Shown one piece after another: positions 4,794 to 33,709 of a stretch of DNA of 64,000 nt (within the stretch, counting starts at the first letter, position 1; each line of letters opens with the position of its first letter). The DNA is from Melioribacteraceae bacterium (GTDB lineage Bacteria > Bacteroidota > Ignavibacteria > Ignavibacteriales > Melioribacteraceae). Under the pieces are notes generated by a model that worked only from the letters and a program-made list of their open reading frames with translations, was not told the origin of the DNA and did no database searches. Location of the stretch: NCBI GenBank assembly GCA_016342755.1, contig JAEINS010000023.1, positions 1 through 64,000 of the forward strand. Reading direction: 5' to 3'. Made by a program: the position numbers and the translations under genes.

Positions 4794-4873
4794 ATTATCT
4801 CCAAAATATTTAAACACTTCTAGCTTCTCACTCCATACCAGATGCAGCTACATATACTAAGCTGGGAATCGCT

Positions 4874-7892: not shown

Positions 7893-8222
7893 TTAGTGTA
7901 CCTCTCTTTTTAGTAATGATCTATATTTTAAATATTTAAACATCTTCCATCTTTTCCTCAACTCTTCAACAATAAAGGGTGTAGCTACACGTACATATAT
8001 AGATGTAGGCCTTTCCTTAAGACCATCGTTTAAGATTTCGTAAACATTACCAGGTATAATAAAGTTATACTCTTCATTTCCAAATACAATGCAAATGTCA
8101 TCATTATGCATATATAGATCGCATATATTATTTGGAGATGTATCATATTCCTCCGGCATAGAGTATGAGGCTATATGCCCGGTTAAACCGTGCGATTCGT
8201 AAAGTGGACCAGTAAGTAACAT
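7893..8222 (-). CDS. hypothetical protein, 109 aa
   Basis: Not recognised. Soluble protein with several acidic and aromatic residues. Its ATG overlaps the stop of the CCA-type enzyme in a TAATG junction, so the two are probably co-translated. Just past its stop, the minus-one reading frame stays open for about 30 codons. Confidence 0.6.
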   Translation of the reverse strand: MLLTGPLYESHGLTGHIASYSMPEEYDTSPNNICDLYMHNDDICIVFGNEEYNFIIPGNVYEILNDGLKERPTSIYVRVATPFIVEELRKRWKMFKYLKYRSLLKREVH

Positions 8223-9529
8223 TACACAGCCTCCGCTATCATGCTATAAATCTCGTCGGGATCATTAATCCCGTGTTCTATCTGTAATTCTTCACATTTA
8301 CGCTTAATATCACCAAGCTTTTTACCAGGCTGATATCCTCTTTCAATAAGATATCCTCCGGAAACGGCAGGTTTAAAATCTACCACTTCAGGCAATGGAA
8401 CAAATACATACGTCTTGAACTCTTTTCTACCATTTGTATCCGCTCTACACACCTTTTCTAATAGGTCAAGGTATTCGCCCGCCCTATGCTGAAACTTACG
8501 CACAGTAGCTTCTCTGTTGCTCTCAGCAACACTATATGCTTGTGTGTGCAATTCACATACTAACTGAGCCTTCTTCAACATTTCATTTGAAAGTTTAAGT
8601 TCTTCAAACAGATCAGGCATAAGATCAGATCCTACAATTTCATGTTTATGAAATGAACTGTAAGTTTTACCCCTATAATCTCCGCTAGTTATTAAATCTA
8701 CATCTACAGCAGTTGACGGTTTGCCATAATCATGTAAAAATGCGTAGAAACGTGCATCTCTATGACATGCAGTAACAGTTTGAGTAATATGTTTCTTTAA
8801 GGTAACCTCCGGATGATAAATAGGATTTTGATATACCGTCGCAGCATGTTTATATTGTGGAAAATAATATCCCATGAGATCAGTATTCCACATAAATTCA
8901 AGGAATAAGTCTGGTCTAGGCTTTTTGAGAGCTTTGAAGAACTCTGCCATAAATCTTTCGACAGGCTCGTTAATAATCATAACAGCAGCCTCTTTTGAAA
9001 GATCGTATGTCCGTTCTTCTATTGTCCAGATACCGTCACAATTTTGACGGTGTAATCTTACTATTCTGATCCAATCTTCTTTGAATCTATACAATGGGTT
9101 ACCAACCGCGCGCAATACACGATCCTCTAAATCCTTAATACCATCAACAAAATCATATACAATACCATTCTTATCAACACATAAAGCATTGACTGTAAAA
9201 TCACAGGTTAAACAATGATCTTCAATAGATGTACCAATAATAGTTCGATCCCCATTACCTCTAAATACAGAAACTTCAAAAACGTTACCGTTTATATTAA
9301 CAGCTATTGTCTGCATCTTTCCTTGACGGGCTTCACCGCCAATTATGTTACCATCAGGAAATATCTCTTTAAGATCGCATGGTTCACAGAATATATCTAT
9401 ATCGTTCCATGCTCTATTAAGTAATTTATCCCTAACATATCCACCTACGATGTAACTTTTAACACCACAAATGGACAATAAGTCCATAATATACTTAGCG
9501 TCAGAATGTATATCTATAATCTTTTCCAT
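8222..9529 (-). CDS. cca: CCA-adding / poly(A) polymerase-type tRNA nucleotidyltransferase with HD domain
   Basis: Class II tRNA nucleotidyltransferase/poly(A) polymerase family, which builds or repairs the 3' CCA of tRNA or adds A to RNA. Residues 25-50 read YIVGGYVRDKLL then NDIDIF, the GG-x(3)-RD and D-x-D catalytic signatures. FTVNALCVD (about 115) matches the CDFTVNA motif, a basic RNA-binding helical part follows, and an HDYGKP HD-domain motif lies near residue 260. I start it at 9529 because TAGGAG precedes that ATG and the upstream extension is unlike the family. That gives about 435 residues. CCA addition and poly(A) addition cannot be told apart here. Together with RtcB and the Thg1-like protein it completes an apparent tRNA-repair set. 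Confidence 0.88.
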   Translation of the reverse strand: MEKIIDIHSDAKYIMDLLSICGVKSYIVGGYVRDKLLNRAWNDIDIFCEPCDLKEIFPDGNIIGGEARQGKMQTIAVNINGNVFEVSVFRGNGDRTIIGTSIEDHCLTCDFTVNALCVDKNGIVYDFVDGIKDLEDRVLRAVGNPLYRFKEDWIRIVRLHRQNCDGIWTIEERTYDLSKEAAVMIINEPVERFMAEFFKALKKPRPDLFLEFMWNTDLMGYYFPQYKHAATVYQNPIYHPEVTLKKHITQTVTACHRDARFYAFLHDYGKPSTAVDVDLITSGDYRGKTYSSFHKHEIVGSDLMPDLFEELKLSNEMLKKAQLVCELHTQAYSVAESNREATVRKFQHRAGEYLDLLEKVCRADTNGRKEFKTYVFVPLPEVVDFKPAVSGGYLIERGYQPGKKLGDIKRKCEELQIEHGINDPDEIYSMIAEAV

Positions 9530-9546
9530 AACTATACTCCTATATA

Positions 9547-9575
9547 TAGAAAAGCAGACCCTTATAGATCTGCTT
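9547..9575 (-). terminator. rho-independent terminator
   Basis: AGCAGA (9553-9558) pairs with TCTGCT (9569-9574). On the minus strand the stem is followed by TTTTCT, and T5 also follows on the plus strand, so it may work in both directions. It lies between the 9603-9965 gene and the start of the CCA-type gene. Confidence 0.65.
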
Positions 9576-9602
9576 TTTGATGAAAACAATATTTTTACAT
9601 AA

Positions 9603-9965
9603 CTATTTAGTTTCTGACACATCAATAACAGCCAGCAGTTCATCCAACACATTGGAAGTTTTACTGATCTCTGCATTAGGCATGTCTTCAGAAAATAGTA
9701 CTTTATATAAAGCTTTAATATTACCTTGCATTTCTCTTGCTTTCTCAATTCTATATTCACTTTTGATGATAGCTTCAATGCTGAACTTATCATCATCAAT
9801 TATATTCTTATATATATCGACAAGCTTTGCATTATCTGCAATGATTTCATCTTGCAGATTGTCAAATGAAATACCAAACTCTCTTCTGCGTTTGTTTTCT
9901 TTTGTAACTAAGTTATACTTTTGAACATCAGTTTTAGTAAGTGTAGATAATTTTTTAAATGACAT
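9603..9965 (-). CDS. hypothetical protein, 120 aa
   Basis: Not recognised. Helical, charged soluble protein. It is the last gene before the terminator at 9547-9575 and starts 14 bases after the 198-residue gene upstream. Confidence 0.65.
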   Translation of the reverse strand: MSFKKLSTLTKTDVQKYNLVTKENKRRREFGISFDNLQDEIIADNAKLVDIYKNIIDDDKFSIEAIIKSEYRIEKAREMQGNIKALYKVLFSEDMPNAEISKTSNVLDELLAVIDVSETK

Positions 9966-14793: not shown

Positions 14794-15210
14794 TTAGGCA
14801 ACTTTTTTACCGCCACTTTTCCTCCCGTAATCTGATGGAATTTCACCCCATTCGGATGTGTTCCATTTCTTTATTTCAATGCCGTATTTTTCGCATCTGT
14901 CAGCAATCAGGTTAGCTCGTGCTATCAGCATATCACGATCCATCTTAACGTTTTTACCAGGCATTCTGTTTCTAACCCATGCCATAGCAGTTTGTGAATC
15001 AGTGTAAACTACCTTGATTCCGTTTTTCAAGGCGTATCTGACTGCTAGTGAAATACCTAACAGTTCAAAAAAGTTATTGCTATGAAGCTCTGTAGCTGGA
15101 GTATTATGGAAGTCTAATTGATTTCCTTTAAGATCTGTTACTCTAGCTCCACCTATTCCAGGATTTCCACTAGTCCATGCATCTGATGTTATTCCAAATT
15201 CCGGTTTCAT
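14794..15210 (-). CDS. RNase H-fold ribonuclease
   Basis: Ribonuclease H type I family, cutting the RNA strand of RNA:DNA hybrids. Visible acidic residues in order: SDAWTSGNPGIGG (Asp near 9), NNFFELLGISLAV (Glu near 49), YTDSQTAMAWV (Asp near 70) and IPSDYGRK (Asp near 128). These match the D-E-D-D set. 138 residues is the normal length for a minimal domain. An AGGAG-type site precedes the start. In a phage it could remove Okazaki primers or R-loops. Confidence 0.8.
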   Translation of the reverse strand: MKPEFGITSDAWTSGNPGIGGARVTDLKGNQLDFHNTPATELHSNNFFELLGISLAVRYALKNGIKVVYTDSQTAMAWVRNRMPGKNVKMDRDMLIARANLIADRCEKYGIEIKKWNTSEWGEIPSDYGRKSGGKKVA

Positions 15211-15660: not shown

Positions 15661-16029
15661 TTACAGTTCTATATCTTTAGACTCGTCTCGATTAAACCAT
15701 TCAACGGCTTCATTAACACTCCACCATGCGATATGTGGATTGTTCCAATACTTCTTCCCCTCCTCATTGAGGTTGTACCCGTCCATGTGACAATTATATT
15801 TTAACATATCACTAACTTTTTTCCTTGTAAATAGATGCGTTTTTCGGGCGCACATCATAGTTTTTAAGAAGTTATGATACTCTGTACCAAATAGACTCTC
15901 ATCTCTAACATCCTTCCATATCTTAACATATTCTTTGTCCATCATTGTTAGTTCAAAAGGGTGTTTCATTATACGTTGTAAAAGAATTGCTTGGTCATGA
16001 AGATTTATCAACGACACAAATTTATTCAC
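15661..16029 (-). CDS. hypothetical protein, 122 aa
   Basis: Not recognised. Helical soluble protein rich in lysine, tryptophan and histidine. It is the last phage-like gene before the bacterial part, and no further phage-type gene is seen upstream of it on its strand. Confidence 0.55.
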   Translation of the reverse strand: MNKFVSLINLHDQAILLQRIMKHPFELTMMDKEYVKIWKDVRDESLFGTEYHNFLKTMMCARKTHLFTRKKVSDMLKYNCHMDGYNLNEEGKKYWNNPHIAWWSVNEAVEWFNRDESKDIEL

Positions 16030-16284
16030 ATCTTCAAACTGAAAATCTTATTGAGGCTGTAAACATTATTTAATTAGGATTTTTTCCATAAAAGGTAGTC
16101 GTTTGGTGTCAATTTTGGTTGTTGTTTCACAACGACTTAGCAGTTGGGAAAAGCATTCCCAAAAGGTATAGTTTAAAAAATATACTGAACGACTTTTTAA
16201 TCAATCCACCTGATCTATTTCATTTTTAACGGGTAACGATTCATTCACATATTCCGCCATGTATCTATAGCACTCGGCATCTTC
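16030..16284. other. junction between phage-like and bacterial DNA
   Basis: No gene is seen. The octamer AACGACTT occurs at 16131-16138 and 16188-16195 with its inverse GTCGTT at 16098-16103. Between the direct copies lie TTGGGAA/TTCCCAA and GTATA/TATAC hairpins. This could be a recombination site, a transcription end, or coincidence. Confidence 0.45.
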
Positions 16285-16440
16285 AGATCAAATATATGTG
16301 ATTCATCATTATACCGCCGGCAGAATTCCCGCTCATGAATATCTGGGCAGGATTAACATCGGTTCTCGGACCATAGGTTTCGTTCGAAAATGTCGGCGTG
16401 ATTGACTATTCCTGGTCAATTTCATCGACTGGAACGACAT
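16285..16440 (-). pseudogene. decayed esterase fragment
   Basis: On the minus strand this stretch resembles two parts of the intact esterase at 33710-34642. One matches its nucleophile-elbow DNA (34060-34100) and the other the segment around 34375-34470, translating as VVPVDEID and then ITPTFSNETYGPR. It has an in-frame TAG and about 270 bases missing between the parts. It is a remnant of a related gene at the edge of the sulfatase cluster. Confidence 0.75.
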
Positions 16441-16536
16441 AAACAAAGATTGAGCAAAAAAAGATGTAGTGAGAGGAACTGTTAAACACGCGTTCTCTAA
16501 TCGCTCTGAATACGTTTATGTCATTCTCCTCCAGGA

Positions 16537-17904
16537 TTACATCTCAATAGGATGCCAGGCTTCGATTTTGGCTTTTAACCTCTCTACGATTTCAGGAAAT
16601 TGCTCGGACACTTCATTCTCTTCATGCGGATCTTCCGCCAGATTGTATAAGCGGACAGGTGCAGTATCCCAATTGTGCGTACGCTTGTACTTTGTTTTAT
16701 CCATGCCGTGGTAACGTATCAGCAGTTTCCAATCCCCCTCGATGCCCCACAGATATTGTAGTGTACTATCCGGATTCTCCAAAGAAATATTGTGAGAGGA
16801 ATGCACACTTCCAAAAACTATTTTACGTTCATTTCGCGCCTTTTCATCCAGAAGGTTTATACCTGGCAGTCCTTCCGGTGCCTTTATACCAGCCGCTGCT
16901 GCAATTGTTGGGAACAGATCAATGGAATGAGCAAAATTCGGATCGTTTTTCGGTTCGATCTTACCCTGCCAATTTAGCATAATCGGCGTGCGAATTCCAT
17001 TCTCATAAGGGGAGGTTTTTGACCTCAGCGCATACTGATTCCACTTTTTCTGATTTGGATCATCTTCACGAGTACTTTTTGCAGCCCACCCATTATCGCA
17101 GATATATACGATCAATGTGTTTTCAAGTGCCCCTTTTTTCTTCAAATACGCTAGTAACTCCCCACATGTTTCATCCAGCCATTCACACATGGCATAATAT
17201 TTTGCCACATCCAGTGCGCGACCCTCTTTTTTATATTTGTTCAACAGACGTGCCGGTGGATTGTGCGGGGTATGAGGCAGAAACACGCCGTACCAGAGGA
17301 AAAAGGGCTTATCCTGCTCAGTAGCCATATCAACAAAATCTGTAACAGGCTTTAATCCTTCACGGCCGATTGCCAACGATTCTTTACTCCCATGCCGACC
17401 CTCCATCTTCATGCCGTGGGTAAAACCGCCATCCTTCCAGGAACCTTCCCACCACTTGCCGGATTGGTGCGTCAGATAGCCGTTCGAAGTCAGCAGCTCA
17501 ATAAACCCAGGATGTTTGTAAAAGTTGTCGCGCAATGGACGATCCCGTTCTTCGCGGCCATCTTTCCTAAGGATAACATCGTTTCCTGTTATGCCATGAT
17601 CAAACGGATGCAGTCCTGTAACCATAGAAGCCAGTGAAGGACGGCACACCGGCGCTGCCAGATAGCCCCTCTCAAACAGTAATCCCTCGCTCGCCAAATT
17701 ATCCAGGTTCGGGGTTTTAATATCAGGGTGTCCCATAAATCCATAATCGGTCCATGCCTGATCATCACTAAGCAGATAAACAATATTGGGTTTTTCATCT
17801 TTAGATTGCTTCATGGTGGCACATGAGTTAAAAAAAATCGTACTGGCTATAAGCAGCAAGATCGAAAAAGTCATCACATTTTTCATATTCGGTATTTTTT
17901 TCAT
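16537..17904 (-). CDS. sulfatase lipoprotein
   Basis: Type I sulfatase (alkaline phosphatase superfamily), hydrolysing sulfate esters on sugars. A lipoprotein signal with the Cys in FFNSC (residue 28) should anchor it to a membrane. Residues 39-48 (PNIVYLLSDD) hold the first metal-binding Asp pair. The modification motif is CRPSL-x(4)-TG starting at Cys87, where the usual Arg of C-x-P-S-R is Leu. SGKWWEG and YICDNGW provide later active-site parts. The start at 17904 has AAAGGA upstream. It is the last gene of the long minus-strand run, 22 bases after the next sulfatase. Substrate is unknown. Confidence 0.9.
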   Translation of the reverse strand: MKKIPNMKNVMTFSILLLIASTIFFNSCATMKQSKDEKPNIVYLLSDDQAWTDYGFMGHPDIKTPNLDNLASEGLLFERGYLAAPVCRPSLASMVTGLHPFDHGITGNDVILRKDGREERDRPLRDNFYKHPGFIELLTSNGYLTHQSGKWWEGSWKDGGFTHGMKMEGRHGSKESLAIGREGLKPVTDFVDMATEQDKPFFLWYGVFLPHTPHNPPARLLNKYKKEGRALDVAKYYAMCEWLDETCGELLAYLKKKGALENTLIVYICDNGWAAKSTREDDPNQKKWNQYALRSKTSPYENGIRTPIMLNWQGKIEPKNDPNFAHSIDLFPTIAAAAGIKAPEGLPGINLLDEKARNERKIVFGSVHSSHNISLENPDSTLQYLWGIEGDWKLLIRYHGMDKTKYKRTHNWDTAPVRLYNLAEDPHEENEVSEQFPEIVERLKAKIEAWHPIEM

Positions 17905-17926
17905 TATCCCAATTTCCTTTATTTGC

Positions 17927-19375
17927 TTAATTTTGTTTGTTTTTATCAGCAGCGGCCTTGTAAGCTTTGTGTCCGGTTGAATTTCCACCAAGTATAGGGT
18001 GGTATTCCTTCGGCAGATCCTTTCGGTGTTTTGCCAGTACCTGCTCCATATTTGGATTGTTTGCTAGATTATTCCACTCATGAGGGTCGTTCAAACGATC
18101 ATAAAGTTCTTCACTGCCGTCGCTGTAATGAATGTAACGGTAATGCTCGGAAACTATAGCCACATTTTCAGGACCAAAACTGCTGCGAGCCGTAAAAGGC
18201 CATGAAATAGTTGGATTCTCCAACAGTAGTTTCAAGGAATTACCTTCGTGTTTTGGATTGGGCTGCTGCCCGGTGAGCTCAATCAGTGTAGGATAAATAT
18301 CCAAAAGTTGGACTGGTTTGTCGCAGACTCCTCCTTTGACAATACCTGGTCCAGCAATGATTAACGGTGTCCCCTCACCGTCCTGCCAAATGCTCCGCTT
18401 GGCCCAGCGCTCTTTTTCACCCAAATGGAATCCATGGTCACTGAATAAGACCACAATGGTATTATCAGCATACGGACTATTATCAAGTGCATCAAGCACA
18501 CGACCGACCTGTGAGTCCATAAACGACACGCAAGCCAAATAGGTCTGCACCAGAGGTTTCCATTGGCCATTTTCAACTACCCATTTCTGAGTGGGTGCAA
18601 TATGTTCCATACTAGTAAGATTAATTCCGTAGCTTGGCACATCGGAAAGGTCTTTTTCAATCACCTTGGGAAGCATTAGTGAATCCAGTGGATAAAGATC
18701 GATCCATTTTTTCGGTGCGTATTGCGGTACATGCGGAGTCATAAAACCCAAGGAAAGAAAAAAGGGTTTATCAAACTCCTGCTCTAATTGTTCCTCGGCC
18801 CAGCTTGCTATTTTATGGTCGGGCATCAGTTCATCTTTTTCCGGAAAAGTTCCCCAGTCCCAAAGTCTAGCACCTGGAAACGGACTTAATTTTTTATCTG
18901 GGAACGGGCCAAAGCCACCGAAATTGCCCGCGTAGTTTTTGAAATAGCGCTTATTACCCTTGTTATGGAACAGCTTGCCGGCAGCTGCCACATAATATCC
19001 CTCACGTTCAAACTTCCGGGGCATAATTTGATCCTCGTCTACAACGGGTGATTTCCACACGGGTGGATTGAGGAAATAAATACCTGTCGTTTCCGGATAC
19101 AACCCGCTCATTAAACTTGCCCGCGAAGGATTGCACACCGGCGACTGGCTATGGGCATTAGAAAAGAGAACCCCACGCTGCGCAAGCCGATCGATATTCG
19201 GTGTTTGTACCTGTGGATGCCCGCCCAGACAACCGATCCAATCGTTCAGATCATCAACTGCAATCAGCAAAACATTGGGGTGCTCCATTGTCTCCTTCGA
19301 AACATCTGTCGAACAGGCAAACAACATCCAGCTGATAAGGGCAAGAGCCATCCAGATCGATTTGTTTTTCATCAT
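17927..19375 (-). CDS. iduronate-2-sulfatase-like sulfatase lipoprotein
   Basis: Sulfatase of the iduronate-2-sulfatase-like type. A lipobox LFAC ends at Cys21; IAVDDLNDWIG holds the metal-binding Asp pair; the formylglycine motif CNPSR starts at about Cys81; AAGKLFH and FSDHGFHLGE follow. Length of about 482 residues is normal. The start at about 19375 is inferred from the signal peptide, since the upstream extension starts with TTG and is not signal-like. The C-terminal tail (HKAYKAAADKN) has a decayed look-alike at 20640-20710. Likely substrate is a sulfated uronate, rhamnose or related sugar, but this is not certain. Confidence 0.9.
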   Translation of the reverse strand: MMKNKSIWMALALISWMLFACSTDVSKETMEHPNVLLIAVDDLNDWIGCLGGHPQVQTPNIDRLAQRGVLFSNAHSQSPVCNPSRASLMSGLYPETTGIYFLNPPVWKSPVVDEDQIMPRKFEREGYYVAAAGKLFHNKGNKRYFKNYAGNFGGFGPFPDKKLSPFPGARLWDWGTFPEKDELMPDHKIASWAEEQLEQEFDKPFFLSLGFMTPHVPQYAPKKWIDLYPLDSLMLPKVIEKDLSDVPSYGINLTSMEHIAPTQKWVVENGQWKPLVQTYLACVSFMDSQVGRVLDALDNSPYADNTIVVLFSDHGFHLGEKERWAKRSIWQDGEGTPLIIAGPGIVKGGVCDKPVQLLDIYPTLIELTGQQPNPKHEGNSLKLLLENPTISWPFTARSSFGPENVAIVSEHYRYIHYSDGSEELYDRLNDPHEWNNLANNPNMEQVLAKHRKDLPKEYHPILGGNSTGHKAYKAAADKNKQN

Positions 19376-19440
19376 AATTTTATTTCCGTTTCTTTTTCCC
19401 TTTGCACCACTTCTTATATGTTGTGTACAATAACTATTAA

Positions 19441-19812
19441 TTTTTATTTGCTTTCTTCGCTTTTTGGTCAGCACCAATTGATATCCTTAGTTTGTTTTAT
19501 TTACTTCAAATAAAATCTTTCTTATTTCATAAAGGTCATCTTTTTTACTTCTGTGCCAAAGGATGATTCTAAACGATACAGATAAATACCTGTACCGGTG
19601 AGATGACCATTTTTGTCTTTGCCATCCCATTTATAGCTATATGATGCCGGAGATAGTTCCTGATCAATTATTGTTTTTACTAGCTGTCCGAGTATGTTAT
19701 AAATTTCAAGCTTTACAAAAGATCTGCCAGACAGGTCAAACGAAATTGTTGTCTCCGGATTGAATGGATTAGGGTAATTGTCATATAGATGAAATTTTTC
19801 TAAGTTGCTTTT
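19441..19812 (-). repeat. sorting-tag cassette, copy 1
   Basis: The 3' end of the esterase gene encoding the FlgD-like sorting domain (19522-19812), plus about 80 bases downstream, is repeated nearly unchanged at 20728-21010 and 22017-22385. Over the domain the copies differ at only a few positions in 280 by eye, while the catalytic parts they are joined to are unrelated. Confidence 0.85.
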
Positions 19813-20586
19813 AATACCGTAATTGACACCTCGCTCAAAATTGACGTCTGTTAAATTACTAATAACGGATGCAATGAAATCAGGAAGGAATTGAAAAATT
19901 TCGTTATTAGAGGTAGCGCTAAGGTTTGCTACTAACTCAGCTCTGTCGCCGATACCAAGTTCAATGTAACGATCTATAATTCCCTGACCATTTTCCGGTT
20001 TATGACCATCTGAAGTTCCAAAAGGTTTGCGATATGCCAGAAATAAAGGGGGAGAATTTACAGTTACCGCAGATAAAAATAGCTCTGAACTAGGCACCCA
20101 TGCAGCGTCTGGGAGTGCCTGTCCAAAATAGGCTGCTATTATGCCTGCTTTTTGACTATGCGCTAATCCCCAACTTGCTATACTTCCACGAGATTGTCCG
20201 CCAATAATAATGTTATTTGCATCTAAATTGTATTGTACGGCATTATCTAAAACCCATTGAAACACATTATAAGAATTCTGCGCAGCACTTTGACCATCTT
20301 CTGATTCCCAGCTAACAATTGCGGTGCCTGCTGCTACTGTAGGGTCGGCCCATTTGGAGCGTACATTATTAGCGGTGGAGCCCTTTGCATGGGAGTAAAT
20401 AAATACCGGAGCAGGATCACTACCATTTGGCAAATAAAGATTCAGCCACTCCATAGAACCTGATCCATAGGATATGTGTGAGTGAGTTGGATTTTTTACT
20501 TGCCCGAAAAGAGAACCGGATATAAGCAAAATCGTGCATGCTAATGCAAGCAAACATTTTGCTTGCGATTTGGAAAGTTTTTTCAT
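19522..20586 (-). CDS. secreted alpha/beta-hydrolase (esterase-like) with C-terminal sorting domain
   Basis: Carboxylesterase-type alpha/beta hydrolase, probably removing acyl groups from a polysaccharide. The signal peptide covers about residues 1-28, and the core begins with HSHISYGSGSMEWLNLYLP. GGQSRGS (about residue 138) is the nucleophile elbow. A downstream acid and His are less clear. After about residue 260 comes a FlgD-like/Por sorting domain (YPNPFNPETTISFDL) of about 90 residues, expected to guide export or surface attachment. It is a paralogue of 24886-25638, with the same signal segment. The start at 20586 follows an ATG-rich leader; 20598 is also possible. Confidence 0.75.
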   Translation of the reverse strand: MKKLSKSQAKCLLALACTILLISGSLFGQVKNPTHSHISYGSGSMEWLNLYLPNGSDPAPVFIYSHAKGSTANNVRSKWADPTVAAGTAIVSWESEDGQSAAQNSYNVFQWVLDNAVQYNLDANNIIIGGQSRGSIASWGLAHSQKAGIIAAYFGQALPDAAWVPSSELFLSAVTVNSPPLFLAYRKPFGTSDGHKPENGQGIIDRYIELGIGDRAELVANLSATSNNEIFQFLPDFIASVISNLTDVNFERGVNYGIKSNLEKFHLYDNYPNPFNPETTISFDLSGRSFVKLEIYNILGQLVKTIIDQELSPASYSYKWDGKDKNGHLTGTGIYLYRLESSFGTEVKKMTFMK

Positions 20587-20639
20587 TGCAATCATCATAG
20601 TATTTGTTTTACAAAAATTTTTCTTAAATCATTCATGAA

Positions 20640-20710
20640 CATTCTATTTCTCATTTACTGTGCTTTAGATTCATTCTTTCAGCGGCAGCCTTGAAAGCTT
20701 TGTATACACT
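20640..20710 (-). pseudogene. sulfatase tail remnant
   Basis: The reading VYKAFKAAAERMN to a stop on the minus strand, and its DNA, resemble the end of the sulfatase at 17927 (HKAYKAAADKN). About 25 of 32 bases match by eye. It directly follows the GH12-like gene end and probably marks an old duplication junction. Confidence 0.5.
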
Positions 20711-20727
20711 AACTATTAAAATCTTCC

Positions 20728-21010
20728 TTATTTCATAAAGGTCATCTTTTTTACTTCTGTGCCAAAGGATGATTCTAAACGATACAGGTAAATACCTGTA
20801 CCGGTGAGATGACCATTTTTGTCTTTGCCATCCCATTTATACTTATATGATGCCCGAGATAGTTCCTGATCAATTATGGTTTTTACTAGCTGTCCGAGTA
20901 TGTTATAAATTTCTAGTTTTACAAAAGATCTGCCAGACAGGTCAAACGAAATTGTTGTCTCCGGATTGAATGGATTAGGGTAATTGTCATATAGATGAAA
21001 CTTATCAATG
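20728..21010 (-). repeat. sorting-tag cassette, copy 2
   Basis: Nearly identical at DNA level to 19522-19812 and 22095-22385. It begins at the stop of the GH12-like gene and ends where the linker sequences of the genes diverge. Here the downstream flank differs from the other two copies. Confidence 0.85.
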
Positions 21011-21981
21011 TAGCTTTGTGTTACTGTTTCATCAATAGCTGAAACTTCATCTGTAGTATTTACTTTAAATTTATCTGTTTTTAAAACTGATGTTCCTGAA
21101 TATACTTCGTAACCTGCATTAATTGTTTTTAACCAAGAGTGATCAGGAGCTATATTTGTATTCGCCAAATCTCTTTGTGCTTGTGGCATATTAGCATATT
21201 GAATATAGTTTTTAGCAACATTAATAACCTCTTTTACATTAACTTTTATATTATAAGGTGCTCCGGCAGGTCCATAAGGAATAAGTTTTACATGTGCTTT
21301 GTTGTCTTTATCGCCAGCACCCACAAAAAACTTATATCGAACGGCATAAGTATAAGTAACACCGTCAACTGTTAGTTCGTATGGTTTTAGGTCACCATTG
21401 GTCTCACGGGCAAAGTACCATATACGGACTCCGGCAGGTGTTGGCTGGTCTGTTAAATTGTCAGCAAAATTATGACTGTGAAGTTTAACAACTAAATCGA
21501 AGTCGCGGTCGGCCTTAACCGGCTCACTGTTTTCTGTGCCATAATTATCAAAGATAAAGTTGACAGAAGACATCCATCCGTCATCACTATCCCAGGCATT
21601 TTCCTGACTGGTGTGCCATACAAAATTCATTTCATTACTTATATCGCTAATTTGAACCGGCATGCCTACTTTGGCCTTATCTCCCGGATACCAAACCCCA
21701 CCTTTTTTTATTCCTCCGCACGTAGCATTAGGATAAGCATCCATTCCAGATCCGCCTTCATCAACATAATCTAAAATAAAACCGCTACCATTTTCGTCAC
21801 TGAAAAGTTCGGGACAGTAATACATTGAACTGAAATCCGTGTCTAAGAAATTTACTAAGCCATAAGATGTAGTTATCATTTTAGTGTTGATAACCGAAAT
21901 GTAATCTTCCTGCGAACAGCTTTGAGCAAACAAATTGTTTACCGCAATTAATACAAATACTAATACTAAAATCATCTTCAT
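20728..21981 (-). CDS. GH12-like secreted beta-glucanase family protein with sorting domain
   Basis: Resembles glycoside hydrolase family 12 (jelly-roll beta-1,4-glucanases and xyloglucanases). YPNATCGG (about residue 81) recalls the YPS-x(3)-G start, and AGYEVYSGTSVLKTDKF (about 298) matches the conserved GFE-x-W-x-GG-x-GL-x(2)-F end that carries the acid/base Glu. At the usual nucleophile strand (E-x-MIW in the family) I read FDLVVKL, with Asp in place of Glu. A signal peptide and N-terminal SCSQEDY precede, and the C-terminal 90 residues are the shared sorting tag. Because the nucleophile is unusual, catalysis is uncertain; a binding role is possible. Confidence 0.65.
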   Translation of the reverse strand: MKMILVLVFVLIAVNNLFAQSCSQEDYISVINTKMITTSYGLVNFLDTDFSSMYYCPELFSDENGSGFILDYVDEGGSGMDAYPNATCGGIKKGGVWYPGDKAKVGMPVQISDISNEMNFVWHTSQENAWDSDDGWMSSVNFIFDNYGTENSEPVKADRDFDLVVKLHSHNFADNLTDQPTPAGVRIWYFARETNGDLKPYELTVDGVTYTYAVRYKFFVGAGDKDNKAHVKLIPYGPAGAPYNIKVNVKEVINVAKNYIQYANMPQAQRDLANTNIAPDHSWLKTINAGYEVYSGTSVLKTDKFKVNTTDEVSAIDETVTQSYIDKFHLYDNYPNPFNPETTISFDLSGRSFVKLEIYNILGQLVKTIIDQELSRASYKYKWDGKDKNGHLTGTGIYLYRLESSFGTEVKKMTFMK

Positions 21982-22016
21982 GCCTTCCTCTATGTTGTGT
22001 GCAATAACAATTATTT

Positions 22017-22385
22017 TATTTTCCCTTCTTCACTTTTTGTAAAGTCCCAGTTAATATCTTTAGTTTGTTTTATATACTTCAAATAAAATCTTTCTTATTT
22101 CATAAAGGTCATCTTTTTTACTTCTGTGCCAAAGGATGATTCTAAACGATATAGATAAATACCTGTACCGGTGAGATGACCATTTTTATCTTTGCCATCC
22201 CATTTATAGCTATATGTAGCCGGAGAAAGTTCCTGATCAATTATGGTTTTTACTAGCTGTCCGAGTATGTTATAAATTTCAAGCTTTACATAAGATCTGC
22301 CAGAAAGGTCAAAAGAAATTGTGGTCTCCGGATTGAATGGATTAGGGTAATTGTCATATAGATGAAACTTTTCTAAGTTGCTTTG
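22017..22385 (-). repeat. sorting-tag cassette, copy 3
   Basis: Third copy of the near-identical tag-encoding segment (22095-22385). It shares its downstream flank (22017-22094) with 19441-19521, so the duplicated unit is longer than the domain itself. Confidence 0.85.
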
Positions 22386-24500
22386 CAATTCTGTTTCAAT
22401 TGCACCAGGAATATGTGTTGGTACAGTTACATGCAGGGAGTTAAAACGGCTTAGCATATAAAATAGAGTACTATTAGTTGGAACAACACCTTCGGTATTA
22501 TGATATTTATAGGGACTTTGAATAAAGGAAGTACCGTCATAAGTAAATCCGGGAAGCATTGAGCCAATACCATCATCGTAAGAACGTTTCATGAAATTTA
22601 CTGACGGAGTAATGGAAGGATCGCCTAAGCCTTGAATATACGATGTAGCATACGGATTTAATCCGGTAAGGAAATGAAAGCCAGATATAGCATATCCGTA
22701 AGCAGTTGTATTGTTCATATAATCGGCAACAGCCAACATAGCAAAAGTTAACTTTTCAACCTGAACAACATTTCCAAAGTTATTGGGTCTGTTAAGTGGT
22801 TGTTCCGGGAAACCGAAAGGGCTTACGTTAAAGCTTGTCCAGTGTGCCATAAATTCGTCTGCCAATCGCTGTACTTGGTCTTTCATGGCTTGAGTACGTG
22901 CAATGGAATAGTACCGACAAATATTTGGCAATGTACCGTTGTCTAACTCAGCATATCTGTTGGGACCGGCGTTGGGTAATGTTCCTGAAATAGCTCTGAA
23001 AACACCATTAACATCATATTCACCATTGTTAATCATGGCATCAGCTTTGTTAAAATACTCAGTTTCGCCAGTTGCATAAGCCATTTCCACGGCAGCAGCC
23101 AAAATATCAACAGACTGTCCTTTATAGCTAACGTTTATATTTATGTCAACTAAATTTTCATTATTAATAGCAAAATCCCATGCTTTTTCGCCGGCAGTTA
23201 AAACTGTAGCTGCAAAAGAGGGATCGCTCTCTTTTAATATTTGGTTTACCATTGCAAAAGATTTAGCAACTCTCGCCGCAGTGTTTGCATCAATATTTTC
23301 TGTCCAGTAGTAAAAAACGCGAGGAGCCACATCTTGGCGGACACGTCCGGTAGGATAACTGCCGTCAGGGTTCTGAGTGTCTAATAAGTTTTGAGCAGCG
23401 ATGCGGATATGAGCTTCAAGGGCTGCTTTGTCGGCAGCATTTTCGGTGTGCATATAAGCCAGGCAGAAATCGCCTAGGGCTTTGGCAGTACGTCCAAGTT
23501 TACTATCGCGGGAATGCGCATCGAATAAAAAGTTATCAGGAGATTCATAAGTTTCACCTGTAAGGGTAAAACGTTCCTTACCATCAATCAATTCCATAGT
23601 TGCTCTACTAAGGGTTTGTCCTCCCGAATAACCCTTGTTGTATTTCCAGAAACCGTCAAACATATCGCTAAAAGATATTGTTCCGCCCTTGGCATACTTT
23701 AAGTTGGAGTAAATGTCTGTGCCGATAGTAACGTTGACTGATAATCCGTTGGCTTCGATATGATAGCTGCCGGTTGCAGTAAGCGATGTCAGGTCAGCTA
23801 TATAGTAGTATTGATCCCATGTTGATGTGGCAGTCCATAAGGTCATTGTTCCTGAGGCTACGACATTGTCTGTGGCATTTTCAATTAATTGATAAGCTGG
23901 ATTACTTATGCTTGTGTTAGAAATTAAAAGAGCTGTTTTGACATGTTCTGGCCTCCAACCCAACTGAGGAACAACCAATGCCTCTTCGTAAGCCAGTTTA
24001 ATGGGGGCAATGTGGAATTGCTGTGTGTTAAGGCCGGTGTAAGTTTCCTGAACAGCAGCGCCAACTGAAGAATAGGAATCGTAGTATGCCTGATCAGGAT
24101 TTGGGTCGGGAGCTGTCGGTTTTTCGTTAATGGCAGTTAAAGCCAGTCCCGAGTTCGCATTTACGATTGAATAGTAACCTTCGCTTTGGGTAAGAGTCCA
24201 TTTTTGTGAGGCAGCTCCAGTCCATGCTTCTGCTATAACACTTTCTCCTGCAACAGTCGAAGCTACGGATAAAACACGTCCTGTTTCTACATTATGAATT
24301 TTGTAAAATTCGTCGCCATTATCAATAATGTTCCACTGACTTTTTGATTTGGAGTAAGAGAACTTTGCCTGTCCGGTTGCAAAAGCCCAGGCAAAACGTC
24401 CGGTACTGCGACTTTCAATTGTATATTCTCTGTTGCTATCGAACTGTGCCGATACTTTTACAACAAATAAGACTAATAATAATAGTATCGATTTTTTCAT
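22095..24500 (-). CDS. GH9-like glycoside hydrolase with ricin-type and CelD_N-like domains and sorting tag
   Basis: Large secreted enzyme of 801 residues. In order: signal peptide (1-19), a ricin-type beta-trefoil, carbohydrate-binding-like (20-145), a CelD_N-type immunoglobulin fold (LGWRPEHVKTALL, about 185-270), an alpha/alpha-barrel resembling GH9 (270-705) with HFLTGLNPYATS and NTEGVVPTNS near the end, and the sorting tag. The Glu in that last motif matches the GH9 acid position, but the usual DAGD motif is not seen at the expected place, so it may be a distant relative or altered enzyme. GH9 members cut beta-1,4-glucans and related polymers. Confidence 0.65.
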   Translation of the reverse strand: MKKSILLLLVLFVVKVSAQFDSNREYTIESRSTGRFAWAFATGQAKFSYSKSKSQWNIIDNGDEFYKIHNVETGRVLSVASTVAGESVIAEAWTGAASQKWTLTQSEGYYSIVNANSGLALTAINEKPTAPDPNPDQAYYDSYSSVGAAVQETYTGLNTQQFHIAPIKLAYEEALVVPQLGWRPEHVKTALLISNTSISNPAYQLIENATDNVVASGTMTLWTATSTWDQYYYIADLTSLTATGSYHIEANGLSVNVTIGTDIYSNLKYAKGGTISFSDMFDGFWKYNKGYSGGQTLSRATMELIDGKERFTLTGETYESPDNFLFDAHSRDSKLGRTAKALGDFCLAYMHTENAADKAALEAHIRIAAQNLLDTQNPDGSYPTGRVRQDVAPRVFYYWTENIDANTAARVAKSFAMVNQILKESDPSFAATVLTAGEKAWDFAINNENLVDININVSYKGQSVDILAAAVEMAYATGETEYFNKADAMINNGEYDVNGVFRAISGTLPNAGPNRYAELDNGTLPNICRYYSIARTQAMKDQVQRLADEFMAHWTSFNVSPFGFPEQPLNRPNNFGNVVQVEKLTFAMLAVADYMNNTTAYGYAISGFHFLTGLNPYATSYIQGLGDPSITPSVNFMKRSYDDGIGSMLPGFTYDGTSFIQSPYKYHNTEGVVPTNSTLFYMLSRFNSLHVTVPTHIPGAIETELQSNLEKFHLYDNYPNPFNPETTISFDLSGRSYVKLEIYNILGQLVKTIIDQELSPATYSYKWDGKDKNGHLTGTGIYLYRLESSFGTEVKKMTFMK

Positions 24501-24651
24501 TATTTAAAATCCTGTTTGAAAATCTATTCATATTTTAAACCTTTATTTGTGATTTATACTACATTATTCATTAATATGTCACACAAAATAGTAGTGTTAA
24601 GTAATATTTAAAGCAGCCATAATAAAGCCGTTACAGTTTTTATAGATCGTT

Positions 24652-24858
24652 TCATTTTTTATCTCCAACCCATTTTGTAATATGTTCATGAATGACTTTC
24701 ACTACGTCATCTTCTGTCATGGATAACCCACCGCCTACGGCATTTTTAGGATTTATACCATGCCCTGCATTTTTTATTTCAATATAAGTGACATCGGCGC
24801 CCACTTTCTTTCCGAGTTTATTTATATACCTGCCTTGTTCTACCGAACTGAAAGCCAT
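24652..24858 (-). pseudogene. C-terminal fragment of an alpha/beta hydrolase
   Basis: 68 residues ending IKNAGHGINPK and then a regular helical tail, which matches the C-terminal part of carboxylesterase-type hydrolases, with the catalytic His in AGHG. No nucleophile part precedes it; the frame opens right after the stop of the next hydrolase. It is most likely a leftover tail. Confidence 0.6.
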
Positions 24859-24885
24859 CGCATTTGTTGTGGGATGATCCGATCA

Positions 24886-25638
24886 TCACTTTGGCTTCAC
24901 GACCGAACGCACAAATTGAGGAAGGAATTGTATTACTTGATTATTCTTTGTGTCGTTAAGGCTGTGCGCCAATTCAGCTTTATCCCCAATGCCAAGTTCT
25001 TTGTATCTCTCCACGACCCTCAAGCCATGTGCTGGATCGTGGATATCCCCCTCGCAACCCGGTTCTTTGCGGTAGGCAAGAAATATAGGGGGAGCGTTTT
25101 TCGTAATCGGCTCTAACAAGCGTTCATTAAACGATTTTCCCGGCAGAGCTTGCCCCATATAAATCCCAACAATGCCTGCGTCCTGTGTATGGGCGAGTTC
25201 CCAGCTTACAAAGCTTCCCCGCGATTGTCCTCCGATAAATATCTTCTCGATATCAAAATTATAGGTCGCAGCATTTTCTTTAACCCATGCGAACATCACC
25301 TTGGCATCCGCCGCGCAGATTTTAAAATCTGATAGTGATTTGACCTTTGCAATTGATTCCCAACTAACAATCGCAGTTCCTTCTTCTACTGTTTGATTAG
25401 CCCAAGAACTTTTAACGTCATCTGCTGTAGAGCCATTATGGTGAGCATATATAAATACTGGGGCGGGATCATTACCCGACGGCAAATAGAGATTCAGCCA
25501 TTGTCTCTCCTCTGGTCCATATGAGACATGCGAGTGAGTCGGTATTTTTTCTTGTCCAAAAAAAGTATTTGGCAATAGCAAAATCGTACAAACTAATGCG
25601 AACAAGCACTTTACAAGTTTTTGGGGAAGTGAATTCAT
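24886..25638 (-). CDS. secreted alpha/beta-hydrolase (esterase-like)
   Basis: About 250 residues with signal peptide (MNSLPQKLVKCLFALV start) and core paralogous to the enzyme at 19522: HSHVSYGPEERQWLNLYLP, then GGQSRGS (about residue 142) as nucleophile elbow. It has no sorting tag. I start it at 25638 because AGGAC precedes that ATG. Its signal segment is almost identical in DNA to that at 26740-26829. A role in deacylating the polysaccharide is likely; the exact ester is unknown. Confidence 0.72.
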   Translation of the reverse strand: MNSLPQKLVKCLFALVCTILLLPNTFFGQEKIPTHSHVSYGPEERQWLNLYLPSGNDPAPVFIYAHHNGSTADDVKSSWANQTVEEGTAIVSWESIAKVKSLSDFKICAADAKVMFAWVKENAATYNFDIEKIFIGGQSRGSFVSWELAHTQDAGIVGIYMGQALPGKSFNERLLEPITKNAPPIFLAYRKEPGCEGDIHDPAHGLRVVERYKELGIGDKAELAHSLNDTKNNQVIQFLPQFVRSVVKPK

Positions 25639-25812
25639 CTTAACCGTCCTATTTTTGGTTGTAAAATTTTTTCTTAAATAATTCATGTGGCTCATCTCCT
25701 TAGTTCTACCAATCCAGCTTCAAGGTTCCACTCGGTAAACTAAAGCACTGCATCATTGCACCTTTGAGATTCCGAACCCCTTCTATCACCTGCTACAACT
25801 GTTGACCATCGA
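25537..25812 (-). repeat. duplicated segment: signal-peptide region plus decayed GH78 tail
   Basis: This stretch matches 26730-27003 in order: the signal-peptide DNA (25550-25640 with 26740-26830), the gap containing ATTCATGTGGCTCATCTC, and then the last codons of the rhamnosidase gene (25705-25812 with 26893-27003). The enzyme tail is decayed here, so the copy at 26.7 kb is the parent or better-kept one. Confidence 0.8.
25705..25812 (-). pseudogene. decayed GH78 C-terminal fragment
   Basis: Resembles the end of the intact rhamnosidase gene (26893-27003), including the sequence CCAATCCAGCT and the region coding for the final LPSGTWELDW-like residues, but with several substitutions and no open frame of its own. 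It shows that a second GH78 gene once lay here or that the end was copied. Confidence 0.7.
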
Positions 25813-25821
25813 ATTGGATTC

Positions 25822-26829
25822 TTAGGGCTTGGGCATTTTGTCGCTTAGGTTCTGTTTAAATAGCCAATCCCACACTTCAGGAGTAATGTCACAGCGGTCG
25901 CTGGCATACTGTGTGATATGGCCCTTCGATTCGTCGTCGCCTGTATAGCGGAAACCGGGAGCGGCATGCCCGATGTCTGGTAGCTCAGTATACTTCATAT
26001 TGCCGTCCATCTTCTTCATCGCCTTGAAAATATCGCGGCTCATTACGGCGGGAACGACAGGATCGTCTTCGCCATGGAACGCCCAGATGGGCACGTCTTT
26101 GATGCGAGCGTAGTCGTACCACGGCGGCAACCCGCCGGAGCTTGGAATAGCGGCGGCAAATAGCTCCGGATTTTCCCAGATCGCCATCCATGATCCGAAA
26201 CCTCCCATGGAATGTCCGAGGACATAGATCCTGTCGCTATCGATCTTGAATTCCTTCTTTAACGTCTCAATGATCTCTAGCACGATTGGCATGTCTCCCT
26301 TCATCTCAAAGTCAGACTTCGATTTCGCCTTTAACTTCTCGATTGCCTTCTGCCAATGCTTAGGCATATTGGCGATATCCTCATCCGTAGGCAATGGTGG
26401 GGCCTTGGCGGGATCCCTCCAGGCGATGGTTGTTTGCGGCACGAGCACAAAGCATGGATGGCGCAACCGCAATTCCTTATCAGCCAAGATGCCGTTCCAT
26501 CTTCGAATATTCCTGATGTTGTTCGAACCCTTGCCGCCCGCGCCGTGAAGACTAAGAATAAGCGGATATGTCTTCTCTGCGTCATAATCGATCGGTTTCA
26601 TAAGGCGATAAGACATGCCGTTGAATTCATGACTCTCGTAAATAGTGAATATCTCTTCCGTGAGACCATGTTTCTTCAGTGTAGCAGAGTCAGGCAGCAT
26701 CTTCCCTACTCCTTCCTTATTCGATTCCGTCGGTATTTTTTCTTGTCCAAAAAAAGTATTTGGCAATAGCAAAATCGTACAAACTAATGCAAACAAACAC
26801 TTTACAAGTGTTTTGGGAAGTGCATTCAT
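25822..26829 (-). CDS. secreted esterase / PHB-depolymerase-like alpha/beta hydrolase
   Basis: 335 residues; signal peptide nearly identical to that of 24886. ILSLHGAGGKG (about residue 98) gives the oxyanion motif, LGHSMGGFGSW (about 205) the nucleophile Ser, HGEDDPVVP (about 263) the acid and PDIGHAAPG (about 297) the His. This is the layout of secreted feruloyl/acetyl esterases and related dienelactone-type hydrolases. It probably removes ester groups that block glycosidases. It lies between the second esterase and the rhamnosidase gene. Confidence 0.8.
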   Translation of the reverse strand: MNALPKTLVKCLFALVCTILLLPNTFFGQEKIPTESNKEGVGKMLPDSATLKKHGLTEEIFTIYESHEFNGMSYRLMKPIDYDAEKTYPLILSLHGAGGKGSNNIRNIRRWNGILADKELRLRHPCFVLVPQTTIAWRDPAKAPPLPTDEDIANMPKHWQKAIEKLKAKSKSDFEMKGDMPIVLEIIETLKKEFKIDSDRIYVLGHSMGGFGSWMAIWENPELFAAAIPSSGGLPPWYDYARIKDVPIWAFHGEDDPVVPAVMSRDIFKAMKKMDGNMKYTELPDIGHAAPGFRYTGDDESKGHITQYASDRCDITPEVWDWLFKQNLSDKMPKP

Positions 26830-26892
26830 AATAATCCTTCTAATTTTTAGTTTATAAAAATTTTTCTTATCTCATTCATGTGACTCATCTCT

Positions 26893-29667
26893 TTATTTCT
26901 GCCAATCCAGCTCCCAGGTTCCGCTTGGCAAACGGAAGCGCTGTATCACCTCACCTCTGACGCTCCGAACCGCTTCTGTTTCATGTGATAGTAGCATGCC
27001 GTCGACATTGATGGCTTTCGGATCAGAACACGGCACATAAACGATTCCTGTGCTATTTGGCGGGATGGTGACAGTCCATTTAATGCTCTCACCGTCCCGT
27101 CGCCATGAACTACCAATGGTTCCACGAATTGAGCGGTATGAAGCATCTACAAAATCCAGCCCTTCCACAAAGGCGGGCTTAAGGATGAACTCCTCGAATC
27201 CTGGATGTTCAGGATCGGGTTTGATTCCCGCAAGCCCTGTATAGAACCAGCTTGCCGGTCCCGCGAAACATGAGTGGATCTGGGACCAGTATCCATTCCA
27301 TTGCTCCCAAATTGTAGTTGCGCCCTGCGCAAGCATATAGCCCCAGCTTGGATATGTCTCTTTATTCATGATTGTGTAGATTGTTTCGTGGTTTTCACTC
27401 TCTTCGAGATAGTCTAACAGGAATGTCGTCCCCGGTAGTCCCGTGTCTAAATGTCCATCACTTTTATTCTCAATTAGATCAATCAGCCTAGCATGTATTT
27501 CCTTGCGCTTTTCTTTTGGTACAGCTCCCACCCAAAGCGGCATTGCCTGGTAGGCTTGCTCCGGTATAAGATAGTACCCAGATTCCTCATTAAAAAAGTT
27601 ACCATGGAAACTTTCTTGCATTGAGGCAATAGTTGCCTCCGCTTTTGCTACCTCCTCTGCCTCTCCAAGGACTCGCCCCATATCAGCATAGGTCTGCCAT
27701 AAGTAGATAAGATAAGCGGTATTGAAAAGTTCCTTCATCTCCCACGTGGGTCCGTTTTTACTGCCCATACCCCGCCGGGGGGCAACCCAATCACCGTGAA
27801 ACTTAGGTGCAGCTAACTCTTTCAACAAAACGCCATCCCGCACCCAGGACTGCAAACGCTCCAAATTTGCCCCAACAGCCGGGAAAGCTAGTTCCAACGC
27901 CCGCCGGTCACCATAGAAAATATATTGCTGCCAGGCAAGTGGCCCAACTATTCCGCCCCATGCTGGGCTCTCAAACCGGTGTTGAACTGGAGCCGTATGA
28001 GGAATCCGTCCCGTTTCGGGCTCGAATACATCGAGCCAGTCCAGAAGCCACTTATGCAAAAACGACTCCGAATCAAATAGATAAGGATATGCAGGCATTG
28101 CCGTTTGACCATCTGCACCATAGCCGTTACGCTCACGCTGGGGACAATCAACATGATACCCGCCCAGATTCAGACAACGAATCGTGTGGACATTGAGCTC
28201 GTGAATCTGGTTAAATAGTTCATTCGAGCAGTTGAAAGTCCCAACAGGATCCAATGCCGTCTCTACCAGCATTGCTTCAAAGTTCTCCAACTCGGGTTGC
28301 TCATCCAGACCTTCAATTGTAACATATCGAAATCCAGCATAATTAAATTTATTCTCGAAAACATCTGTACCGTCACCTCTAGTCACATATGTAGAGATTT
28401 GCTTATAACTTTGATCCTTCTTACTGACATAGTCCGCTGGAAGATCAAAGAAACGCATTACAATTTTTTTATCTCGTGAAACGTTGGGAAAACGTAAGCG
28501 AACAATACCTGCAAGACAGCGACCGAAATCGATCTCATACAAATCCTCGCTCAGCAACCGCACCTTTTCGGCTTTATATGTGGCTCCGATACGATTAGGC
28601 GGACAGGTTCTGGCTGATACTACAATAGGTGGTGTCGAAACGATATTGACAGGGTTCCAGCCTTCTGTTGAGTGCCCAATCTCCTTCCAACTCGAAGATT
28701 CTAGTCGTCCATCTACGGCTTCTCCTCCAAAATTGTTCCATCCCCAGCGACCGATAATAGTTCTATTAGCCTCACGAGCAAACCAATCTAAATCACTTCC
28801 GAAGATCGTTTGAAGTTTATCTCCATCTCGTGTATAAGCTTGCATTCGTATAAGAGGTGTTTTTCCTTCATAAACCTTGAAGCGATTTGGAAGATACCAT
28901 CCACTTGAGCTAGCCAGAGCAATAATATTCTCCCCGGGCTGTAAGAGTTCACCAATCTCGTGAGTAACACATAGACCTCGCTTGTCGAGTTTGGTTACAG
29001 ACGGCGCCAGAGGTTCATTCCCCACACGTTTACCGTTAACATAAAGTTCGTAATAGCCGAGGCAGACCACAGCCAGTGCGACACGATCTGGCACGTTATC
29101 GAGTTTGACAATACGCCTCATCCACCACGTTGGACGTTCTTCGTTCTTATTCTTTTCTTTGTCTGCTGCTGCGGAAATGGTTAACACAGGTGGTGCCATC
29201 CACTCTGCTGTCCAATCTTCTTCTAGAAGTCCGGTTGTAAAATAAGTGATCTCGCTCCATCTACTTTCTTGCCCTTGCTGATCCCATATTCTTACTTGCC
29301 AGTAATATCGTGATCCACTATTTAATTTAACAGACTCAGGAAGCTTAATCTCTTGTCGATCAGAATTAATACTCCCACTCTCCCAGACATCAGGGCTCGA
29401 CAATAAATCAGAACGAGATGCAATGCGGATAGCGAAACTGCTTTGGAAAATATTCTTTCCCTCCGATCGAATCGACCATCTAAATGTTGGTGTTAGGTCA
29501 TCTATACCGGAAGGTATCTCAATACTCGCAATATTGAGATTAATCGGTTCAATGGTTTTGGCTTGCGACAACAAACCTGTTGTCAACATCAAGCAGCAGA
29601 TGAGCAAAATGTAAAACTTGTATTTGCCTTTCATATTAATTAATGGAGCTCGAAGTTTTATGTTCAT
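26893..29667 (-). CDS. GH78 alpha-L-rhamnosidase
   Basis: 924-residue secreted enzyme cutting terminal alpha-L-rhamnose. Signal peptide, then a fibronectin-like start (TPTFRWSI and YYWQVRIWDQQG), a rhamnosidase N-terminal beta domain (about 160-330), and the (alpha/alpha)6 catalytic domain with DCPQRERNGYGADGQ (about 505-520), the family's acid-bearing motif, and GATTIWEQWNGY near 785. Ends in a beta-sandwich. The start at 29667 has AAAGGA upstream. No sorting tag. Rhamnose-rich sulfated polymers such as ulvan or bacterial/algal exudates would fit the sulfatase context. Confidence 0.9.
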   Translation of the reverse strand: MNIKLRAPLINMKGKYKFYILLICCLMLTTGLLSQAKTIEPINLNIASIEIPSGIDDLTPTFRWSIRSEGKNIFQSSFAIRIASRSDLLSSPDVWESGSINSDRQEIKLPESVKLNSGSRYYWQVRIWDQQGQESRWSEITYFTTGLLEEDWTAEWMAPPVLTISAAADKEKNKNEERPTWWMRRIVKLDNVPDRVALAVVCLGYYELYVNGKRVGNEPLAPSVTKLDKRGLCVTHEIGELLQPGENIIALASSSGWYLPNRFKVYEGKTPLIRMQAYTRDGDKLQTIFGSDLDWFAREANRTIIGRWGWNNFGGEAVDGRLESSSWKEIGHSTEGWNPVNIVSTPPIVVSARTCPPNRIGATYKAEKVRLLSEDLYEIDFGRCLAGIVRLRFPNVSRDKKIVMRFFDLPADYVSKKDQSYKQISTYVTRGDGTDVFENKFNYAGFRYVTIEGLDEQPELENFEAMLVETALDPVGTFNCSNELFNQIHELNVHTIRCLNLGGYHVDCPQRERNGYGADGQTAMPAYPYLFDSESFLHKWLLDWLDVFEPETGRIPHTAPVQHRFESPAWGGIVGPLAWQQYIFYGDRRALELAFPAVGANLERLQSWVRDGVLLKELAAPKFHGDWVAPRRGMGSKNGPTWEMKELFNTAYLIYLWQTYADMGRVLGEAEEVAKAEATIASMQESFHGNFFNEESGYYLIPEQAYQAMPLWVGAVPKEKRKEIHARLIDLIENKSDGHLDTGLPGTTFLLDYLEESENHETIYTIMNKETYPSWGYMLAQGATTIWEQWNGYWSQIHSCFAGPASWFYTGLAGIKPDPEHPGFEEFILKPAFVEGLDFVDASYRSIRGTIGSSWRRDGESIKWTVTIPPNSTGIVYVPCSDPKAINVDGMLLSHETEAVRSVRGEVIQRFRLPSGTWELDWQK

Positions 29668-33660: not shown

Positions 33661-33709
33661 ATAACTAATCCTTTTGTTTTATTCACAAGCGTTTCGGAGA
33701 TGGAATCTG

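Follow-up and report, generated by a model that had tools for sequence, protein, structure and literature searches.

Huge-phage-type genes joined to a tyrosine recombinase remnant beside a sulfatase island on a Melioribacteraceae contig

The window analysed here comprises bases 1-64,000 of contig C26 (75,687 bp) of a Melioribacteraceae bacterium, base 1 being also the first base of the contig. On its left, a 15.9-kb block of small genes, mostly on the minus strand and with RNA-repair enzymes of the kind carried by huge phages, stops at positions 15,939-15,947 inside a tyrosine recombinase gene, close to its 3' end, and a bacterial sulfatase cluster follows. With slightly better than even confidence, we read this as a real join by illegitimate recombination, which would have left the chromosome with a piece of huge-phage-type DNA in one of its accessory regions. 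Events of this kind are known, but the phages of this host group are little known. A search of the open-licence literature listed no report on Ignavibacteria phages of the huge-phage kind, and only general papers on integrated lytic-phage fragments or chimeric contigs. Huge phages have been recorded chiefly as free genomes; PMC7162821 reports a single sequence of >200 kb that is termed a prophage. If our reading is true, the chromosomal piece would give one lineage of huge phages a named host group, namely the Ignavibacteria.

The recombinase remnant and the position of the join

When the window is compared with the recombinase genes of relatives, agreement drops to the left of approximately 15,939-15,947, which fixes the exact position of the join to within a few bases only. 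Positions 15,942-16,070 read in frame as SLLVQKGVSLYVVKELLGHEDLSTTQIYSHLQTENLIEAVNII, with a stop codon at 16,071. This piece matches PF00589 over positions 139-170 of 172 (E 5.0e-6, 28.0 bits, with a cut-off of 27.1) and is 90.7% identical over 43 amino acids to residues 325-367 of the 367-residue recombinase of Ignavibacteriae bacterium NAT134 (G031). Only the counterpart of these C-terminal residues is left in the window, which lacks the rest of the protein and with it the HTLRH box. The remnant has LLGH and the Y of QIYSHL, which we take to be catalytic, and starts at SLLVQ, after HTLRH; the catalytic set is thus incomplete, and the remnant is not a working integrase. The original prediction had seen no integrase, which holds for a working enzyme and not for the recombinase remnant lying exactly at the edge. 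A short integrase remnant can hide in this way on the opposite strand.

The original prediction had also placed the end of the phage-style genes at 16,029. Phage-type genes do occupy the left side, but their boundary is the join itself; the open reading frame (ORF) of 15,661-16,029 that suggested the later position is extended by the antisense of the recombinase gene. The trap is a general one, since the last ‘phage’ ORF at such an edge may be half antisense of a bacterial gene. The shorter edge ORF is possibly cut by the join, and we found no homologue of it in phage records or IMG/VR patterns. Its start codons lie in the CATCAT of 15,940-15,945, which is also present in the recombinase of one relative (L048) and which we conjecture to be a few-base overlap at the break.

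In a DNA search with 14,000-18,500, which scored at most three candidates per genome, 26 of the 78 family relatives gave a match (27 of 79 with the own genome) and, among the matches listed, every one in a relative falls in 15,906-16,076. The best named matches to the bacterial side include metagenome-assembled genomes of Ignavibacteriae, Melioribacteraceae, Stygiobacter and Melioribacter, and the taxon is taken from the names of such relatives. Both the gene matches and the recombinase remnant exceed chance.

The own genome has 4.73 Mb in 56 contigs (the smallest of 2,029 bp), with estimates of 100% completeness and 0.48% contamination, and we refer to it below as the bin. It gives 13 matches to PF00589, and the remnant is the only one within 1-64,000. 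The most similar C-terminus of another recombinase in the bin is 74% identical to the remnant over 34 amino acids. An intact 403-residue tyrosine recombinase at C26:73,560-74,771 (minus strand) is 58% identical over 38 amino acids; it lies beyond the window, and its 3' end faces the sulfatase cluster, as the remnant's does. We also considered a partial PF00589 match at C46:10,017-10,256 as the other half of the same gene and rejected it, with 24% identity to the relative's recombinase. Positions 15,500-16,100 have no second copy in the bin, neither an att pair nor a second recombinase 3' end, which agrees with the earlier statement that no complete att pair is visible.

The phage-side block and its huge-phage counterparts

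ORFs of at least 60 amino acids have a mean length of 155 amino acids to the left of the join (n=27) vs 425 on the rest of C26. The recognisable genes are listed in Table 1, and together they form a tRNA and RNA-repair block of the huge-phage kind; RtcB and RNA repair have been described in jumbo phages (PMC7824862). Three of the genes, for the CCA-adding enzyme, the nucleotidyltransferase and Thg1, occur in the same order and on the same strand in the 484-kb phage record LR756508 (at 18,849-19,976, 20,001-20,888 and 21,037-21,690 of the fetched stretch, respectively). Besides, two IMG/VR contigs, L030 (247 kb) and L034 (50 kb), have the nucleotidyltransferase gene ahead of Thg1 by some 2-3 kb. 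The order shared with LR756508 supports a phage origin of the left block.

The likeness has its limits. Protein identity between LR756508.1 and the window is only 25-36%, the three genes touch in the phage record while other genes stand between them in the window, and the window block is joined to bacterial DNA, unlike the phage record. No tRNA gene is found in the 64-kb window. We take LR756508.1 to be a member of the published huge-phage study, although the accession is absent from its main text. The prophage described there (PMC7162821) was likewise recognised by a transition into flanking bacterial sequence, but it exceeds 200 kb; here we have 15.9 kb, or up to about 23 kb plus a repeat if contig C32 (see below) belongs to the block.

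Of 20 phage-side proteins scanned against PHROGs, seven gave matches at E 0.01, including one to a family without known function, and none was an integrase. As a control, 22 bacterial-side proteins gave no match to eight phage loci or to 32 Thg1 loci (E 1e-3). Single-protein scans of IMG/VR with RtcB, the edge ORF, the nucleotidyltransferase, the phosphoesterase, the CCA-adding enzyme and an SSB of C32 returned no relative; such scans detect close relatives only, so these negatives are weak. Within the class, Thg1 and the nucleotidyltransferase are each present in 2 of 391 genomes, the own genome included. The other Thg1 gene of the class stands on a contig (G124:C7:82001-122000; L164/L165) whose GC content passes from 0.35-0.41 to 0.22-0.32, and it is the AT-rich part that holds Thg1 together with an RNase H-like ORF. 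This change is possibly another phage-bacterium transition.

Phage homologues of the nucleotidyltransferase begin with MGGNALK or near it, and the true start of the window gene is probably this inner motif, after an upstream extension of the ORF. The ORF of the CCA-adding enzyme was probably also called too far upstream. To judge from their coding sequences, the RNA-repair enzymes may still be made from the block.

Two further sequences lie among the phage-side genes. Positions 14174-14228 (minus strand) match the type-P1 twister ribozyme (Rfam RF03160) with 39.4 bits and E 1.1e-5, under the gathering score of 67.2; this candidate keeps the conserved core letters and has shortened internal hairpins. 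A GC-rich non-coding stretch with short repeated motifs is found at 15,235-15,665. We discarded the idea of a special folding for it, as it was barely better than shuffled sequences (z -2.2; 3 of 100 shuffles equal).

Table 1. Features of the window around the join (- minus strand, + plus strand,. not stranded)
Feature	Positions	Strand	Evidence or remark
Right end of two-copy IS-like repeat, contig end	1..77	.	terminal TTATTCAAAGGGTTC, then TA
RtcB RNA ligase	102..1292	-	PF01139 E 4.6e-66; phrog_1075 E 2.2e-122; matches in 651 phage records
Thg1, tRNA-His guanylyltransferase	1292..2122	-	PF04446; phrog_4717 E 1.2e-81; 32 IMG/VR loci
Calcineurin-like phosphoesterase	2438..3130	-	PF00149; phrog_1649; 209 phage records
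Nucleotidyltransferase	3792..4817	-	phrog_24943 E 5.3e-36; homologues in LR756504, LR756508, L030, L034
CCA-adding tRNA nucleotidyltransferase	8222..9799	-	PF01743, PF12627; phrog_2244
RNase H-like protein (weak)	14794..15210	-	phrog_531 E 1.5e-5; no Pfam match at 0.001
Phage-side edge ORF, starts MMDKEYVKIW	15661..15945	-	ORF only
Join	15939..15947	.	ungapped base comparison with recombinase genes of 4 relatives (fifth without anchor)
Tyrosine recombinase 3' remnant, 43 codons and stop	15942..16073	+	PF00589; recombinases of relatives
Esterase (BD-FAE-like) pseudogene pieces	16254..16444	-	tblastn with 33,710-34,642 protein, E 3.4e-10 and 5.7e-8
Sulfatase, first intact bacterial-side gene	16537..17991	-	PF00884 E 7.7e-46
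Rest of sulfatase/glycoside hydrolase island	17927..41738	-	GC up to 0.495 in 1-kb windows

The left contig end and the origin of the join

Just past the phage rtcB gene, on its downstream side, the contig terminates in a repeat that resembles an insertion sequence (IS). The starts of C26 and C25 are identical over 75 bp, and contigs C16 and C32 bear a mirror-type end, 96% identical over 79 bp. A pattern covering both ends located exactly four sites across the 4.73 Mb of the bin, none of them more than 80 bp from a contig end (C16, C25, C26 and C32), and the reversed pattern used as a control located none. The left and right ends have 16 of 17 terminal letters in common, TA included (15 of 17 for the C32 end), and such terminal inverted repeats with TA flanks are those of insertion sequences. 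By its sequence, the repeat is a two-copy IS-like element, presumably of the IS630-like type, with inverted ends and TA flanks and with an interior that is not in the contigs examined.

As TA stands at all four ends, a target-site duplication does not discriminate among the possible pairings. The esterase gene at the end of C16 and the radical-SAM gene at the end of C25 are adjacent and divergent in two of the five relatives with the radical-SAM gene (G046 and G031), which argues for an order C16-repeat-C25 and, by elimination, for C32-repeat-C26. We adopt this linkage as the simplest reading. C32 (7,183 bp) carries two SSB genes along with small ORFs, and also bacterial-looking genes; it is partly phage-like and not firmly phage. 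At its left end, no matching end of another contig was found.

According to our favoured reading, a real join in the chromosome, a huge phage infecting this lineage would have contributed DNA to the chromosome, or a phage genome resident there would have been cut down. Either would have come about by end-joining, perhaps through a few shared bases, within an old island integrase gene, leaving only the last 43 codons of the recombinase at the right edge. Recombinases of this type are common in relatives, so the join probably fell at a place where a mobile island had its worn edge beforehand, next to the esterase pseudogene and the acquired sulfatase island, and the pseudogene suggests that damage was tolerated there. 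No function follows from the join itself.

Four observations count for phage DNA residing in the bacterium. The element that bounds the phage block has its other copy in a host locus, the recombinase interrupted by the join is typical of the family, and the sequence of the join is not a repeat in the bin. The fourth is a 63-bp sequence in another host contig (C23:10749-10811; L043) that is 89% identical to the start of the phage gene at 3,458-3,841 (87% over 23 amino acids). This copy is intergenic, 967 bp from a tRNA-Arg gene, and may be a relic of a related phage. The original prediction offered a prophage edge as one option, and this survives only loosely: given the other copy of the IS-like repeat in a host locus, the phage DNA appears to be resident, but an att pair is missing.

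Several points weigh against our reading. The join is known from the assembled contig and may be an assembly error. In all likelihood the genome was binned from a metagenome. Two of its contigs, C10 and C5, appear foreign in their strongly deviant codon use and GC content and in their gene starts (judged by eye), so that the bin probably includes some contaminating contigs. The recognisable phage genes are intact, unlike those of an old fossil, and only 5 of 29 phage-side ORFs match the fetched phage loci. The other carrier of the nucleotidyltransferase in the class is a bacterial genome with a GC content of 0.6, where the gene has bacterial-looking neighbours. We found no terminase in the bin with PF03354 and PF03237, which were detected in three and six, respectively, of the 14 genomes used as controls; any further phage DNA would hence lie outside the bin. 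PF07230 (T4 portal family) matched none of the control genomes, so its absence is uninformative.

The linkage to C32 is weakened as well. In three of the five relatives (G010, G045 and G036) the esterase gene is not beside the radical-SAM gene. None of the 11 ORFs of C32 matches the fetched phage loci, its SSB matches are generic, the protein of 757-1782 has a bacterial relative and no phage match, and a WD40/PEGA lipoprotein looks bacterial. Composition fails as proof of membership, since the foreign-looking C5 correlates with the phage block at 0.73 vs 0.71 for C32.

The intact genes, the missing terminase and the foreign-looking contigs would equally suit a chimeric contig, in which DNA of a free huge phage present in the same sample became attached to a bacterial contig by misassembly. 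PMC12768965 reports >100,000 lytic phages in bacterial assemblies as separate contigs; phage DNA within a bacterial assembly, jumbo phages included, is common to both cases, but in the window phage and bacterial DNA are on one contig. Contig ends in the own genome overlap by up to 77 bp, from which we read the assembly as of a k=77 type. Such an assembly needs a shared word for a misjoin, and the join offers no repeat in the bin. Furthermore, the block ends in the repeat that it has in common with host contig C25, and a free phage would need that host element too. We regard a chimera as less probable than a real join.

A bolder form of residence is more doubtful still. The block could mark the margin of a huge prophage, or of a phage-plasmid, that resides in Ignavibacteria, carries a host IS and is located in a catabolic island, with its remainder outside the bin and with the C23 relic as an older trace of the same phage lineage. 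The other phage end, which the original prediction proposed to look for, lies in any case outside the window, as base 1 is the first base of the contig.

Phage integration into gene 3' ends leaves the gene's 3' end at the edge, and only such an end is present here. The join could accordingly mark one boundary of a complete huge prophage that used the recombinase 3' end for site-specific integration, the 43-codon piece being the displaced 3' end, and the >200-kb prophage sequence of PMC7162821 mentioned above speaks for this option. It predicts a second 3'-end copy, possibly with a duplicated core, and the bin has none, its nearest C-terminus being the 74% match. Together with the lack of an integrase among the scanned phage-side proteins, this makes the explanation improbable.

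Phages can carry host genes, and the earlier suggestion of host DNA within a phage is nevertheless very improbable: the phage would have to bear about 59 kb of cargo, all of C26 to the right of the join, the far end of C26 has 42-76 bp in common with 10 other contig ends of the own genome, and the intact recombinase with a similar C-terminus lies close to that end, at C26:73,560-74,771.

The bacterial side of the join

Secreted-enzyme genes start at 16,537, as had been stated, with a sulfatase, and the decayed esterase noted between the two sides is borne out by the sequence. Its pieces correspond to residues 55-89 and 170-207 of the protein encoded at 33,710-34,642, in two frames, with an internal stop and about 80 residues missing; at the DNA level, they share 80% identity with that gene across 102 bp and 74% across 89 bp. 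The island further encodes sulfatases and GH78-like rhamnosidase, GH95, GH9 and GH10 proteins (GH, glycoside hydrolase) with type IX secretion tails.

The tetranucleotide composition of the part from about 16 to 42 kb is farther from the host mean than that of 97-99% of 124 host pieces, and from 43 kb on GC content and tetranucleotides are near those of the host. The part from about 16 to 42 kb was thus probably also acquired. Its unusual composition makes the join one of foreign to foreign DNA, and not of phage DNA to core chromosome; the abrupt phage-to-bacterial transition originally described is present in the sequence, with the qualification that its right side is itself atypical up to about 42 kb.

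Two minor features were observed within the island. A 1,302-residue protein (29752-33660, minus strand) fuses a GH95 glycosidase to a sulfatase. At 19440-22312, a 300-nucleotide repeat is present in three copies (80-93%), which cover the regions of adjacent genes that encode the C-terminal secretion tails, together with the sequence that follows.
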